In this document: in pieces, positions 18,843 to 24,901 of the stretch | How positions within the stretch are numbered: position 1 is the stretch's first letter | Layout of the letters: each line of letters opens with the position of its first letter | NCBI RefSeq assembly: GCF_001647085.1 | Contig: NZ_CP015520.1 | Location: forward strand, 1,694,219 to 1,758,218 | Reading direction: 5' to 3' | DNA length: 64,000 nt | Source: Thermococcus piezophilus | GTDB taxonomy: Archaea; Methanobacteriota_B; Thermococci; Thermococcales; Thermococcaceae | The notes under the pieces: model-generated | The model's input: the letters and a program-made list of their open reading frames with translations, nothing else | Databases searched by the model: none | What the model was told of the DNA's origin: nothing | Position numbers and translations under genes: made by a program

Positions 18843-18876
18843 TACCTAGAGACCTTAAGAAAATGTGGTGAGAAAC

Positions 18877-19503
18877 GTGCCCAGGATCAAGGACGAATTA
18901 GGAGAGTTCCTTGTTAGGCTTGCAAGGAAGGCAATCGAGGAGTATTTAAACTCAGGAAGAGTCATTAAGCCACCAGAGGACACTCCAGAAGAGCTTTGGG
19001 AAAAGATGGGAGTTTTTGTCACTCTCAACCGCCATGGTGTCCCAAAACAATCAGCGCTCAGGGGGTGTATCGGGTTTCCCTTGCCAATTTATCCGCTCGT
19101 TGAAGCCACAATAAAAGCGGCTATATATGCCGCTGTTGAAGATCCTCGCTTTCCACCTGTAACGCTTGATGAGATGGACAACATAACCGTTGAGGTGAGT
19201 GTTCTAACTCCTCCCGAGTTAGTTGAGGGGCCTCCAGAAGAGAGACCGAAGAAAATTAAAGTTGGAAGGGATGGGCTGATAGTTGAGAAGGGCATTCATT
19301 CGGGACTTTTGCTGCCTCAAGTCCCTATTGAATGGGGCTGGGATGAGGAAGAATTTTTGGCAGAAACCTGCTGGAAAGCTGGCTTACCTCCAGACTGCTG
19401 GCTCGATGAGGATACAAAGGTTTACAAGTTTACGGCGGAGATATTTGGGGAGGAATACCCAAGAGGCCCCGTGAAGAGGAAGCCGTTAGTTCCAGAAGAG
19501 TGA
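18877..19503 (+). CDS. AMMECR1 domain protein
   Basis: 208 aa from GTG 18877, five bases behind GGTGAG; the longer reading from 18865 starts inside that site. Family signatures are clear: [21 protein letters not shown] (LRGCIG is the AMMECR1 core), [58 protein letters not shown]. Recent work ties AMMECR1/MEMO/radical-SAM sets to biosynthetic chemistry, but here it stands without MEMO or radical SAM partners. It is cargo of the composite element and AT-richer than backbone genes. Its own upstream region is replaced by the IS630 relic. Confidence 0.88.
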
Positions 19504-19504
19504 C

Positions 19505-20860
19505 TTATTCTTTTCTCAATTTTGCAATGAAAAAGCTGTTACAGTCGTGCAGATGAGTCCAGGCCCTAAAAACTTTATCTCCAATCTCCGTGAATCCCTT
19601 CTCGCCCCAGCTGAAGGGGTAATCAACCAGCTCAAAACCCACCTTGTTTATTGCATATCTAACATTCTCTTCGTTTTCATCAATCCTGATTGAGCAGGTT
19701 GAATATGTCATGTCCCCACCGGCTTTCAAGTTGCGATAGGCATTCCTCAGCATCGCCTTCTGCACTTGAATAACCCTTTGAATTTTCCTTTCATCAAAGC
19801 GCCACTTCACCTCAGGGAACTGCCTGTAGGTGCCCGAACTTGAGCATGGAGCATCAAGAATAATTCTATCAAACTCTTCTTTGTCTTTAAACTTCATCCC
19901 ATCAGCATGGACAAGCTTAACATTTGTAACTCCCAGAGCCTTCATCTTCTCACGCATTTTGTTGAGCCTTTCCATAGAATAATCAACAGCTATTATCTCC
20001 CCCGTGTTTTCCATCAGGTGAGCAACGTGGAATGTTTTGCTGCCCGGAGCAGCTGCCAAATCAAGAATTCTCTCGTCCTTTTCTGGGCTTAAAACATGGG
20101 CAACATAAGCTGAAGCCAAGTCTTGAATGACAAAGTGGCCTTGCTTGTACCATTCAAGCCTCGTAATTGGAGTCTCGTATTCTAAAATCTTGAGCACGTC
20201 ATCAACTAGAGTTCTAGCAACCCTAACATTGTGCTCCTCCAAATAATCAGCTAAGCTGTCAATGTCCGTTTTTAGAGGATTCACCCGCACATAGTAGCGC
20301 TGAGCTCTATTATTGCTTAGCATAAGCCTTACCGCACCCCCATAACCAAGTAACTCAATTGCATATTCAACGTACCATCTTGGATGGGAGAACTTAACAC
20401 TTAAATACTCAATTCTATCCTTCTCTTTCAGCTTTTTTAAAGCTTTTTCAAGGTTGAAACCCTCAACCTCCCTAAGCAGGGCATTCACAAACCTGGCCTT
20501 TGATTGATCATATCTCTCCTTAACAACCCGGACAACGGAATCGGTGGCAATGGCAGGATTAACTCCCTTGAACTTCATTTCAAAAACGCCGATTCTGATT
20601 AAATTGGCCAAATAAAGATCCAAATCCTCAATTTTTGAGCCCTTGAGGACGGAGTTCACCATGAAGTCGATTTTCTTCCTCCATTTTTCAATTTCGAATA
20701 CATAAGCATGAGCCAACCCACGGGCTTTTTCTCTGTCTCTTCCACTAACTCGCTTAAAAACTCTCTCAAGGGCATTTTTTGAAGAGAGCTCACGCTCATC
20801 AATTAATGTTAATATGTCAGCTATGAGCTCGTGAAGAGTTATGCGATAAAACAGCTCCAT
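19505..20860 (-). CDS. RsmB/NSUN-type tRNA/rRNA cytosine-C5 methyltransferase
   Basis: 451 aa. Residues 1-140 form a NusB-like RNA-binding domain (ELFYRITLHELIADIL, VKERYDQSKARFVNALLREVEGF). The catalytic part has the SAM motif DLAAAPGSKTFHVA, the Cys motif LDAPCSSSGTYRQFPEVKWRF and the second Cys motif TYSTCSIRIDENEENV, both cysteines needed for m5C formation. Full length and intact. It is convergent with the AMMECR1 gene (1 base between stops), part of the AT-rich cargo, and probably came with it; a second NSUN gene elsewhere in the chromosome would be expected. Confidence 0.88.
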   Translation of the reverse strand: MELFYRITLHELIADILTLIDERELSSKNALERVFKRVSGRDREKARGLAHAYVFEIEKWRKKIDFMVNSVLKGSKIEDLDLYLANLIRIGVFEMKFKGVNPAIATDSVVRVVKERYDQSKARFVNALLREVEGFNLEKALKKLKEKDRIEYLSVKFSHPRWYVEYAIELLGYGGAVRLMLSNNRAQRYYVRVNPLKTDIDSLADYLEEHNVRVARTLVDDVLKILEYETPITRLEWYKQGHFVIQDLASAYVAHVLSPEKDERILDLAAAPGSKTFHVAHLMENTGEIIAVDYSMERLNKMREKMKALGVTNVKLVHADGMKFKDKEEFDRIILDAPCSSSGTYRQFPEVKWRFDERKIQRVIQVQKAMLRNAYRNLKAGGDMTYSTCSIRIDENEENVRYAINKVGFELVDYPFSWGEKGFTEIGDKVFRAWTHLHDCNSFFIAKLRKE

Positions 20861-21076
20861 GCTCTTAGCTTCGATGGAGAGTTTAAAAATTTGGCGACGT
20901 TGAGAGCTGTTTCGTAGTTATAGTAATTAAGAACCCTCAATTCAGTAGCTCCGAAAGATAGCAATGATTGTTTCCTGAGGGTCAACAAGGGCAGAAACTC
21001 AAACTGGTCACTACATACCTATAAAAACAAAAGTTACAGACAAGTAATGGTTAATTGAGTTATCCGCTCAGCTGGT
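20861..21076. other. Intergenic region in transposon cargo
   Basis: 216 bases between the RsmB-type gene start and the ABC ATPase stop. The only structure noted is a perfect 7-base inverted repeat, ACCCTCA (20933) and TGAGGGT (20976), with a 36-base loop. No gene seen. Confidence 0.3.
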
Positions 21077-21715
21077 CTATTGCCCCTCAGCTATTTTAGG
21101 TAAGACTTTGCTATATTTAGTTGCATTAATTATTTTTGCTTTATTTGCAAGTAACTCTTTTAAATAGTTAGTTCTCGTCGATATAATAACTATTTTGTCT
21201 TTATTCATTAAGTATTCCACAAACCACGGAATTAGAGCTTCGACACTGTAATCATCAAGACCAACAGTTGGGTCATCGATAAGAAAGAGCTCTGCACTTT
21301 CAGCAGCTAGTATACTTGCCAATTGGAGTCTTCTCTGTTGGCCTTGAGATAAATGGGAGATTAAGACATTTGGATGAACTCCCACATATTTAAGAAGTTT
21401 TGAATAATTAGAATAATGTCCATAGAGGGCTCCTACAACCTTTAAATACTCTATTGCTTTCAAGCTACCTGGAAGGGTTACCCTCTCATCAAGGAGAAAT
21501 ATTTTCCTCTTGAGCTTTGGAATTGGTTTTCCATTTAATTTTACACTTCCCTCTAAAGGTTTTAGGAATGATGCTATAGTTCTTAGAAGTGTTGTTTTTC
21601 CAACCCCATTAGGACCCCAAAGAATTACGACTTCCCCTTTTTCCACTTGAAGGTTTATTGGGCCTATAATTGGAATCTTGCCATAACCAGCCACGAGATT
21701 TTGAAGTTCCAGCAT
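21077..21715 (-). CDS. ABC transporter ATP-binding protein (peptide-export type cassette)
   Basis: 212 aa, short single nucleotide-binding domain. Walker A GPNGVGKTT at residues 34-42, signature LSQGQQRRL at 122-130, Walker B LFLIDDP at 143-149. The residue after the Walker B aspartate is Asp (DDP) where most ABC ATPases have the catalytic Glu, so hydrolysis may be slow or differently tuned. The start lies one base after the stop of the membrane HExxH gene. Together with the permease and the Cys-rich protein it forms one operon; by analogy with bacterial peptide-bacteriocin loci it likely powers peptide export or self-protection. That is inference. Confidence 0.8.
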   Translation of the reverse strand: MLELQNLVAGYGKIPIIGPINLQVEKGEVVILWGPNGVGKTTLLRTIASFLKPLEGSVKLNGKPIPKLKRKIFLLDERVTLPGSLKAIEYLKVVGALYGHYSNYSKLLKYVGVHPNVLISHLSQGQQRRLQLASILAAESAELFLIDDPTVGLDDYSVEALIPWFVEYLMNKDKIVIISTRTNYLKELLANKAKIINATKYSKVLPKIAEGQ

Positions 21716-21716
21716 T

Positions 21717-22124
21717 TTACATTACCTCCGTAGCATCTATAAGGCTCATGGCACCAATACCCAACCAAAGAATTATGAAAACCCAGTTTCTGGATATTGC
21801 AGTTAACACGACTGCAACAAGCAACGGCAGTAATGTACTGAGAATAACTGCAGAAGACGGTATTGGCTTAGTTGTTGATATTGTAATACCAATGCCATCT
21901 CTTTTTACTTCTATCTCCCGGTTCCTCAGAGGAATGTAATGTCCAACTTCATGGAGGTATATCATAAGGAACACTGAAATAAAGATTTCCCCATTAAGAG
22001 GGTTCTTGAGGAGACATCCTAAACGGTCTAGATAAGCCGCACCCACGAGGATTACTAAAGCTACACTCAAAAATACCTTTAATAAGTTTCCGGCAACAAT
22101 TCGCGTGAACTCCCAGAATTTCAT
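21717..22124 (-). CDS. Small membrane protein with HExxH metalloprotease motif (M50/DUF3267-like)
   Basis: 135 aa with about four membrane helices (residues 9-30, 48-64, 88-108, 112-130). HEVGH at residues 58-62 sits at the end of the second helix, as in intramembrane site-2 proteases, and a late acidic pair in SLIDATEVM could be the third metal ligand. It lacks the extra domains of full site-2 proteases. It overlaps the permease gene by 4 bases (ATGA) and abuts the ATPase gene. Similar small M50-like proteins accompany ABC transporters in Bacillus epipeptide-type (Yyd) and Skf loci, where they act in peptide maturation. Whether it is active here is unknown. Confidence 0.65.
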   Translation of the reverse strand: MKFWEFTRIVAGNLLKVFLSVALVILVGAAYLDRLGCLLKNPLNGEIFISVFLMIYLHEVGHYIPLRNREIEVKRDGIGITISTTKPIPSSAVILSTLLPLLVAVVLTAISRNWVFIILWLGIGAMSLIDATEVM

Positions 22125-23266
22125 ATTCTTCCCTCCTTATTTAGTTTAAACCATACCAAATATGCAGGGAACGACATAGATATTGCAAGCATAACAACAT
22201 ATTCTTCTGGCACTTGTATCCTTCCGATAATGAAACCCAAAAGCATATACCCAAGTAGGAAATTCCCAAGAGAGTCGTTTCTATCAGGAGAGGGTGCCAG
22301 GGCAGATGATACAAAGAGTGAAAGAGCAAGTACAAGTAGAATACCCTTAAAACTACCAATTCCAAAGAGCATAAGAATGAGAAATGGGAGAGCAATAATT
22401 ACAATTCCGAAGACAGCATTTAAGGAAAACCCCAAGATAAAACTTCTATTTAATAATCCCCTTAAGAGTTTTATATGCCAGATATAGTTGTCTAGATACC
22501 TAAGAGCTGAGACAGAGAGAGGTAGCATAAGGGACAGAAGCATGGATAGTGTAGTGAAGACACCTCCAAGTAATAGTACATAACCTTCCTCACTGAGAGA
22601 TATGTTAGAGAGATACGTTGCACCACCTCCAATAGGAGATGCCCAGAGTTCTGTGTCGTGGACATTTACATAGATAAGCAACATTCCAAGTACTACAAGA
22701 CTCAGAGGCCATAAAATTAATGGGTTAATAATTGTTATAGGAGTTTTGCCTATCCAAAGGAGAGTCACTCTCCTCTTAGGAATTAATTTCAGTGTCACCT
22801 TTGTCAGTAAAACTACCCCAAATACCATGCTGACAAAGAAGTTGAAATTATATGTCAGTGCAAATCCTGGCAAAAGAAGTAGTGGGCTATCGACAATACC
22901 TAGGAAGAGAAAAGCAGAGAGCACAATGTAATAAAGAGGGGGAATTGGACTAAATGTAGAGAGCACTAAAGGAAATGGCAGAAAAGTTAGTAAGTTCATA
23001 ACATTAATCCTCCAATCCGAAGCAGGGAGAGTTTCTATTCCAAGAAGATTCCTTGGATCATGAGTAAGGGAATAAATCCAGCCAACGAGTCCCGTTAGAA
23101 TTATCATGTTAGTAACTAAAAGCTCTTGAGGTATCAAAGTTATTATAAGTGAAAGATCTTTAAATGTATAGAATACCCCGACACTCACCAGCAAAAAGGC
23201 GATATAGCTCCATCTTCTAAGGAGCATCTTGAGCCATATAAAAAACAGACAAAAAAAGGCTTTCAT
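22121..23266 (-). CDS. Polytopic membrane protein, probable ABC permease
   Basis: About 381 aa from ATG 23266, behind GGTGATAAAT; a start at 23275 would overlap that site. Around ten hydrophobic segments, beginning with FFCLFFIWLKMLLRRWSY, whose charged LKMLLRR stretch resembles the N-terminal coupling region of ABC-2 type permeases. No soluble domain. No sequence family can be named with certainty; it is taken as the transport partner of the adjacent ATPase because of the operon (4-base overlap downstream, 39 bases to the Cys-rich gene upstream). Confidence 0.65.
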   Translation of the reverse strand: MKAFFCLFFIWLKMLLRRWSYIAFLLVSVGVFYTFKDLSLIITLIPQELLVTNMIILTGLVGWIYSLTHDPRNLLGIETLPASDWRINVMNLLTFLPFPLVLSTFSPIPPLYYIVLSAFLFLGIVDSPLLLLPGFALTYNFNFFVSMVFGVVLLTKVTLKLIPKRRVTLLWIGKTPITIINPLILWPLSLVVLGMLLIYVNVHDTELWASPIGGGATYLSNISLSEEGYVLLLGGVFTTLSMLLSLMLPLSVSALRYLDNYIWHIKLLRGLLNRSFILGFSLNAVFGIVIIALPFLILMLFGIGSFKGILLVLALSLFVSSALAPSPDRNDSLGNFLLGYMLLGFIIGRIQVPEEYVVMLAISMSFPAYLVWFKLNKEGRI

Positions 23267-23305
23267 ATTTATCACCTTAAAAAGTTAAAAATAATCAAAC
23301 TAAAA

Positions 23306-23758
23306 CTAAACTATACACTTACACACATACTTCACATAGAACCAACCAGTGTCCCAAGTGCACGATTCCATAGCTCCATGACAGGCAAGGCGCGGACAGA
23401 CAACTCCACAAGCTACAATGGAGCCAAAGATTAACACGATAACTGAGATGGCGAGTATAAGTATTATCACTTGTATGTACCTTAGCTCGCCAGATTTTCC
23501 AGCTCTGCTTGCAATATCTATGCTGTATTTGGCTATAATAGTAGCAAGGGCGTAGCTAAGAATCAAGAGGATTGGTGTTGCTCTAAAAAGAGTCTCCCTG
23601 TTGGTAGTTATCTTTTCAATTAAAAATGGGATATTAATTCCCTTGGCAATTGAGAGCAGGGACAACCCTACTACAAATGTCTGAGCTAGTAAAGTTCCAA
23701 GTAGTAGTACTACTCCACTAAATAATATCTTTTCTTTTATTTCTTTTGAAAGATACAT
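23306..23758 (-). CDS. Membrane protein with C-terminal six-cysteine peptide (candidate peptide precursor)
   Basis: 150 aa. Three membrane helices (about residues 11-37, 57-79, 94-116) are followed by a 34-residue tail with cysteines 117, 121, 126, 133, 146 and 148 (VACGVVCPRLAC, ESCTWDTGWF, VCKCIV). It is the first gene of a four-gene operon with a permease, an HExxH membrane protein and an ATPase. A TATA-like ATTAAAAATA at about 23779-23788 (read on the minus strand) gives a nearly leaderless mRNA. The tail would be a fit substrate for cleavage and export, disulfide or other crosslinking; this is inference. No known family recognised. The IS6-derived right end lies 80 bases upstream. Confidence 0.6.
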   Translation of the reverse strand: MYLSKEIKEKILFSGVVLLLGTLLAQTFVVGLSLLSIAKGINIPFLIEKITTNRETLFRATPILLILSYALATIIAKYSIDIASRAGKSGELRYIQVIILILAISVIVLIFGSIVACGVVCPRLACHGAMESCTWDTGWFYVKYVCKCIV

Positions 23759-23838
23759 CTGGATATAACCCCTGAACTATTTTTAATATTGTTGATAGGA
23801 TTATGGTATGATTTATAAATTTTTCTGTAAAGACAAAA

Positions 23839-24099: not shown

Positions 24100-24901
24100 A
24101 TGAGGATATACACACTCGTGGAGGACTACTCCAGCTATGAGAGTCCCTTTCTGGCACAGCACGGCGTGAGCTTTCTCATCGAGCACGGAAACAAAAGGAT
24201 TCTCTTCGACGTTGGCTAGAGTGCTGGGCCGATACTCCACAACATGAAACTCCTTGAGCTTGAGCCATCAACTACATCTTTCTCTCCCACTGCCACTACG
24301 ACCACACCGGCGGGCTTTTGGAGATGTTAAAGACAATTGGCCGCAGGGTTCCAGTTATAGCTCACCTACCATCTTCGGGCAGCACTTCATTACAAAACCC
24401 TACTTGAGAGACGTCGGCGTTCAATTCTGGGGAAAAAGTTGAGGAGCTCGCAGAGCTCTACCTTACGGCCGAACCAATCGAGATAGTCAAAGGGGTTTAC
24501 TCCACGGGCGAGGTTCACGAGAGGGAGGACTTTGAGCGGACCAGTCTTGAGGTTTACACCATAAAAGACGGGCGCGTTGTAAGGGACGAGCTCCTTGACG
24601 ACATGAGCCTTGCGATAAGAACTCCCAAAGGGCTCGTCGTGGTTAGCGGCTGTTCCCATGCTGGAATCGTGAGCATAGTGAAGCACACCATGAGGCTGAT
24701 CGGCGAGGAGAGGGTGAGGGCCGTCATTGGGGGCTTTCACCTGATAGATGAAAGCACTGAGAGAATAAAGAAGACAGTGAAGGCGTTCCTCGACTTGGGT
24801 GTGGAGGAGGTTTACACCGGCCACTGCACGGGGCTGAGGGCAGAGGCGGCATTCCTGGAGGCCTACGGGGGAACTTCCACAAACTCCATTCCGGGATGTA
24901 G
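24100..24901 (+). pseudogene. MBL-fold metallo-hydrolase, multiply broken
   Basis: ATG 24100 follows GGTGATCTT. Pieces in three frames: MRIYTLVEDYSSYESPFLAQ, FLIEHGNKRILFDVG then TAG (24207), the zinc motif HCHYDHTGG in another frame, then EELAELYLTAEPIEIVKGVY and LRTPKGL-like IRTPKGLVVVSGCSHAG, IGGFHLIDES, YTGHCTGLRAEAAF, and finally FHKLHSGM to a TAG at 24901 in a further frame. Intact relatives (TM0207 type, about 260 aa) bind two metals. At least one nonsense change and three frameshifts make it a true pseudogene. It sits just right of the composite transposon, which replaced part of its upstream region but left the TATA box (AAAAAATATAATTC). Confidence 0.85.

Follow-up and report, generated by a model that had tools for sequence, protein, structure and literature searches.

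A four-gene cassette in Thermococcus piezophilus, with relatives at 11 other loci, appears to represent a family of secreted peptides, weapons or signals, that has yet to be described, to judge from its gene content and pattern of conservation. It lies on the minus strand of a 64,000-nucleotide stretch of DNA (the window), running from 23758 to 21077, and its co-oriented genes code for a 150-aa protein, a 384-aa protein, a 135-aa protein with an HEVGH motif, and an ABC ATPase. Because the identical gene order recurs at the 11 other loci, the gene set is more than a chance association. Most of what is known of peptide antagonism in archaea comes from haloarchaea and Sulfolobus, and archaeal peptide systems were reportedly predicted by Makarova et al. 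in 2019 (mBio). Among the papers searched, none described a Thermococcales peptide weapon or signal; some of the cassette genes may have been mentioned earlier. The features of the cassette are as follows.

23812 to 23824, minus strand: TATA-like promoter element AAAAATTTATAAA, called from its sequence, 54 to 66 bases upstream of the first ATG
23306 to 23758, minus strand: gene 1, putative 150-aa precursor with three transmembrane (TM) helices and a six-Cys C-terminal tail (ORF, homologues, model)
23504 to 23758, minus strand: residues 1 to 85 of gene 1, a two-TM module whose counterpart by position and architecture is a separate two-TM gene in subtype II
23309 to 23416, minus strand: residues 115 to 150 of gene 1, the Cys-rich tail and predicted product (invariant Cys, conservation, model)
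22121 to 23275, minus strand: gene 2, 384-aa polytopic membrane protein, probable ABC permease (likely start ATG 23266)
21717 to 22124, minus strand: gene 3, 135-aa membrane protein, M50/DUF3267-like zincin (sub-threshold Pfam similarity)
21939 to 21953, minus strand: HEVGH motif, residues 58 to 62 of gene 3 (HExGH is invariant in subtype I-A)
21735 to 21737, minus strand: Asp130 of gene 3, which may be the third zinc ligand (invariant in subtype I-A)
21077 to 21715, minus strand: gene 4, 212-aa ABC ATPase (Pfam ABC_tran, E = 2e-21; PDB 1sgw)
20956 to 23825, minus strand: segment common to the window and a T. paralvinellae MAG (locus L005) by blastn, from the promoter to ∼120 bases past gene 4

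An earlier, sequence-only reading of this DNA described four genes on one strand, with a 39-base gap, then a 4-base overlap, then a 1-base gap between them, and the ORFs fit this layout given a permease start at ATG 23266, which is preceded by GGTGAT. The other four subtype I-A loci have a related A/T-rich block at an equal distance upstream of gene 1. In line with the three helices and six-Cys tail of that reading, the gene 1 protein has three hydrophobic stretches and a tail with cysteines at C117, C121, C126, C133, C146, and C148, and AlphaFold2 (mean pLDDT 75) predicts helices at residues 2 to 39, 62 to 85, and 90 to 125, followed by a beta hairpin at 130 to 148; the model is compact, with hairpins in both the TM1-TM2 loop and the tail. 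All six tail cysteines are invariant across the five homologous I-A loci. The Lys-rich N terminus and a Lys/Arg loop at residues 86 to 95 would put the tail outside the cell, in agreement with the AlphaFold2 model. The protein has no family match in Pfam or NCBIfam, the tails have none in Pfam, and a fold search with the precursor model gave nothing better than E 0.87. A similarity to Na+/H+ antiporter subunit E (E 0.24) was dismissed as noise. Matches to a common Na+ or drug efflux system, raised at the outset as another identity for the set, were sought and none was found; the ATPase groups with those of the sister cassettes.

The gene 2 protein has no match in Pfam, NCBIfam, or PDB, and its structure model (mean pLDDT 46) is too poor for a fold search, but the hydrophobicity and position of the protein agree with its earlier designation as a permease, and its homologues occupy the matching position at the 11 other loci; it is thus a probable ABC permease. 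Gene 4, by comparison, is the ABC ATPase that it was said to be, with a Walker A motif (GPNGVGKTT), a signature (LSQGQ), and a Walker B motif (LFLIDD) all present. The closest solved structure to the ATPase profile is PDB 1sgw (E 2e-42, far above other solved ATPases), a "putative ABC transporter" ATPase that matches the subtype II ATPase profile with E 1.2e-112 and is almost identical to the subtype II ATPase of genome G123 (L111 5067-5693). For 1sgw, whose structure was solved without an assigned function, the cassette family would supply one. In the ATPase tree, a branch with 100/98 support sets the 12 cassette ATPases apart from two outgroup ATPases, and each subtype separates with one change. 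PADLOC matches of the ATPase were put down to generic ATP-binding similarity.

The 12 cassette loci, some of them damaged, fall into three subtypes and are all in the heat-loving Thermococcaceae, in 10 of the 115 genomes of the phylum; among the 396 genomes sampled, no permease match lay outside the phylum, and scans of viral contigs and protein searches of plasmids found no relatives. Sampling was of one genome per species, and the I-A set includes two incomplete MAGs. Subtype I-A is present as a whole cassette, with its order unchanged, in four Thermococcaceae genomes beyond the window (G061, G065, the T. paralvinellae MAG [L005 = G139], and the Thermococcales archaeon 44_46 MAG [L006 = G133]). 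Profile searches yielded seven paralogous cassettes, with the ATPase profile recovering 1sgw and five further loci, all paralogous cassettes, and the permease profile adding two cassettes and one broken copy. Subtype I-B (G012, G002, and G019) has the same fused architecture as I-A, with the tail GACGYCKKVVCSPNPVKECG...SWTLFEIKCVC. Subtype II (G061, G126 twice, and G123) is organized with a signal-peptide-like Cys peptide, a separate two-TM protein, the permease, an HExxQ protein, and the ATPase, in that order. Several subtype II loci carry damage: the G123 peptide lacks its Cys core and the HExxQ protein there is truncated, one G126 copy has a frameshifted ATPase, and the other has lost the first cysteines of the peptide. 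G061 holds both a I-A cassette (L013) and a subtype II cassette (L110), the latter between nadC and AMMECR1. Downstream of a subtype II cassette, L109 5721-9097 holds a further ABC permease/ATPase set along with genes for putatively secreted proteins.

The subtypes are linked by profile comparisons, in which the I-A permease and protease profiles match those of I-B and II with P values of about 1e-4 to 3e-4, compared with 0.37 to 0.68 for four unrelated membrane proteins against the I-A permease profile; the permease comparison of I-B with II is weak alone (P 0.06). The subtype II two-TM protein and the N-terminal part of the precursor also match weakly (hhalign P 0.003), and the reading of gene 1 as a fusion thus rests mainly on position and architecture. 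Homologues of gene 1 that lack the tail or lie apart from the transporter genes were sought, but each of the eight intact fused homologues has the six-Cys tail and adjoins transporter and HExxH genes, and the only tail-less relatives are decayed N-terminal precursor fragments in G070 and G123.

The gene 3 protein is a 135-residue membrane protein with HEVGH, again as first described, and its similarity to Pfam DUF3267 (23.1 bits against a cutoff of 27.1) and M50 (16.9 against 27.2) is sub-threshold, as it is in all five I-A members. The I-B counterpart has HEFLH and an invariant D124 equivalent to Asp130, whereas the subtype II counterpart has HExxQ and lacks the conserved Asp, such that an intact HExxH and Asp are confined to loci with a fused precursor. 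The simplest reading of this pattern, which comes from a single evolutionary split, would be that the zincin cuts the fused precursor. Because subtype II has HExxQ, release of the peptide by the protease can hold for the fused subtypes at most, and the retention of a protease-like gene in subtype II despite its HExxQ may point to another role. The proposal of an archaeal peptide system with a cut-off tail is thus strengthened as to the peptide, which subtype II encodes as a gene of its own, and narrowed as to the cutting.

The tails are the best-conserved part in each of the fused subtypes. In I-B they are 89 to 92% identical (dN 0.036 to 0.049), compared with 38 to 52% for the permeases (dN 0.39 to 0.63), and because tail dS is 0.7 or saturated, this identity reflects selection and not recent copying. 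In I-A without L005, the 34-residue stretch that is most conserved in the cassette is formed by the tail with the last part of TM3; with L005 included, it is level with the ATPase signature region. Between the window and L005, the closest pair, the precursor is the most changed protein (24% of residues versus 9 to 11%; P = 7e-6, Fisher test on residues), and the tail has 11 residue changes versus synonymous change in 2 codons (P = 0.04 compared with genes 2 to 4). Between subtypes, little is kept in the tails besides the Cys frame, in which the spacings resemble each other (3,4,6,12,1 in I-A, 2,4,7,14,1 in I-B, and 2 or 6,3,9,14,1 in II). Aligned with each other, tails of I-A and I-B do better than shuffled versions that preserve the cysteines (P 0.001 to 0.05), and II tails match those of I weakly past the cysteines (P 0.04 to 0.2).

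Intact I-A copies occupy at least three insertion sites. The window and L005 copies share one end, which in the window precedes RsmB/NSUN; in L005 polB is on the other side of the cassette, and in G016 polB adjoins NSUN with the cassette absent, representing an empty site. Rearrangement has apparently affected the polB side in the window. The G065 and L006 cassettes adjoin a glycyl-tRNA synthetase gene, and the G061 I-A cassette adjoins a peroxiredoxin gene. There are several other features of note in these neighborhoods. A metallo-beta-lactamase-fold gene adjoining the cassette (window 24103-24600) looks broken, with an in-frame TAG after 39 codons and SHCHYDHTGG downstream. The AMMECR1 and RsmB/NSUN methyltransferase gene pair has two copies in the genome, one beside the cassette (window 18865-20860) and one at G000:C1:1086443-1087792. 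Inteins appear to be present in a DNA polymerase B beside one cassette (L005 3-2309) and in a ribonucleotide reductase near another (L127 6539-9970).

The best explanation, held with middling confidence from these comparisons, is that the cassette is for peptide production and self-protection, with an archaeocin-like product that is possibly a signal. The 150-aa protein would be a membrane protein whose six-Cys tail faces the outside of the cell and probably carries disulphides between its cysteines; the M50/DUF3267-like protease would cut in or near TM3, and the freed tail would be the active, possibly toxic, product. The ABC ATPase and permease would expel or exclude the peptide from the producer's membrane, and the two-TM module probably goes with the transporter or with immunity. 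Because the charges would already place the tail outside, no ABC exporter is needed for it, which favors protection as the task of the transporter. In subtype II, the peptide would depend on its own signal-peptide-like start, leaving the protease unneeded and its active site to decay to HExxQ.

Several lines support a peptide cassette: the 12 loci with one gene order, the six-Cys frame kept though the tails differ, tail conservation in both fused subtypes despite diverged synonymous sites, the restriction of HExxH and the conserved Asp to loci with fused precursors, and the precedents of Yyd/Epe (PMC7026026) and halocin C8 (PMC11509114). It is strengthened by the subtype II Cys peptide being a separate gene with a signal-peptide-like start, and the scattered occurrence, with multiple insertion sites, an empty site, and degraded remnants, is as expected of conflict genes. 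Against it, the modelled tail hairpin could belong stably to the membrane protein, tail conservation this high is unusual in an arms-race toxin, and the protease role draws on an active-site correlation from one split and on a gene 3 protein under the Pfam gathering score. A pure resistance module is less likely because the tail is so conserved.

It is possible, if on the unlikely side, that the 150-aa protein is a permanent ABC subunit whose Cys-rich domain, on the outside of the cell, senses or binds a foreign peptide, lipid, or metal for resistance or uptake, with the HExxH protein regulating turnover of the complex. Strong purifying selection on the tail would fit a fixed ligand, the compact model with its two hairpins is also in its favor, and the cassette genes are always together, but the Cys peptide of subtype II is separately encoded with a signal-peptide-like start, and because the permease and ATPase genes are intact where its Cys core is deleted (G123) or shortened (one G126 copy), the transporter does not obviously need this core. 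That the released tail is a pheromone and no toxin, with the subtypes as signalling groups, is quite unlikely: the discrete, internally conserved tail types resemble such groups, and the raised change in the precursor of the window and L005 pair is in keeping with them, but the cassettes have no receptor or regulator gene, and Yyd-type peptides kill through membrane damage (PMC7026026). Metal or haem handling, with the ABC pair moving a cofactor bound by the tail, draws on the C-x4-C-H of the I-A tail and on CcmA as the best NCBIfam model of the ATPase (below cutoff), but it is highly improbable given the far better fit of the ATPase profile to 1sgw than to any other solved ATPase and the absence of cofactor genes nearby, and it was ruled out as the main reading because the His is missing from I-B and II tails.

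With peptide production and self-protection as the preferred reading, the three subtypes, the fused or split precursor, and the fused-only active site open the maturation of such peptides to tests in organisms that are genetically tractable. The tails also recall CS-alpha-beta (defensin-type) peptides in having three cysteines, then one, then C-x-C, and a predicted helix followed by a beta hairpin; the C-x3-C spacing fits I-A and one II type (C-x3-C-x9-C) and is lost in I-B, the disulphides are predicted, the tails have no Pfam match, and a PDB search with one subtype II peptide returned CS-alpha-beta chains as its sole matches, at a nonsignificant E of 0.35. It is a speculative and rather improbable extension that Thermococcaceae make defensin-like, disulphide-rich killer peptides that an intramembrane zincin releases from a precursor with three TM helices, and that in a sister lineage the precursor gene was split, the peptide acquired a signal peptide, and the zincin was left as an inactive partner.

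The gene 3 proteins are like M50/DUF3267 zincins in having HExxH in a membrane helix and, in I-A and I-B, a conserved Asp, although they score below Pfam gathering and subtype II has HExxQ without the Asp. Halocin C8 derives from an archaeal precursor (ProC8) with a C-terminal peptide behind another domain (PMC11509114), an arrangement shared here, but the size differs and the cassette adds protease and ABC genes; the halocin C8 family model does not match the precursor (Pfam and NCBIfam) or the tails (Pfam), and the gene 1 N terminus, MYLSKEIKEK, is without the twin Arg of a Tat signal. The Yyd/Epe locus of Bacillus subtilis (yydFGHIJ, epeXEPAB) has a peptide gene, a membrane protease, and an ABC ATPase/permease in one operon, the ABC pair having a proposed self-protection role (PMC7026026), in line with its citation as a precedent by the sequence-only reading. 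The Yyd precursor is a short soluble pre-pro-peptide, whereas the cassette precursor has three TM helices and a six-Cys tail in 150 aa, or is split between genes; no sequence match is established, and no radical SAM gene, the epimerase of Yyd/Epe, is present among the cassette or scanned flanking genes, as had been noted. The cassette is thus no member of the Yyd/Epe or halocin C8 families, but Yyd/Epe is its nearest working analogue, since both combine a membrane protease with an ABC pair of ATPase and permease (the permease here a probable one).
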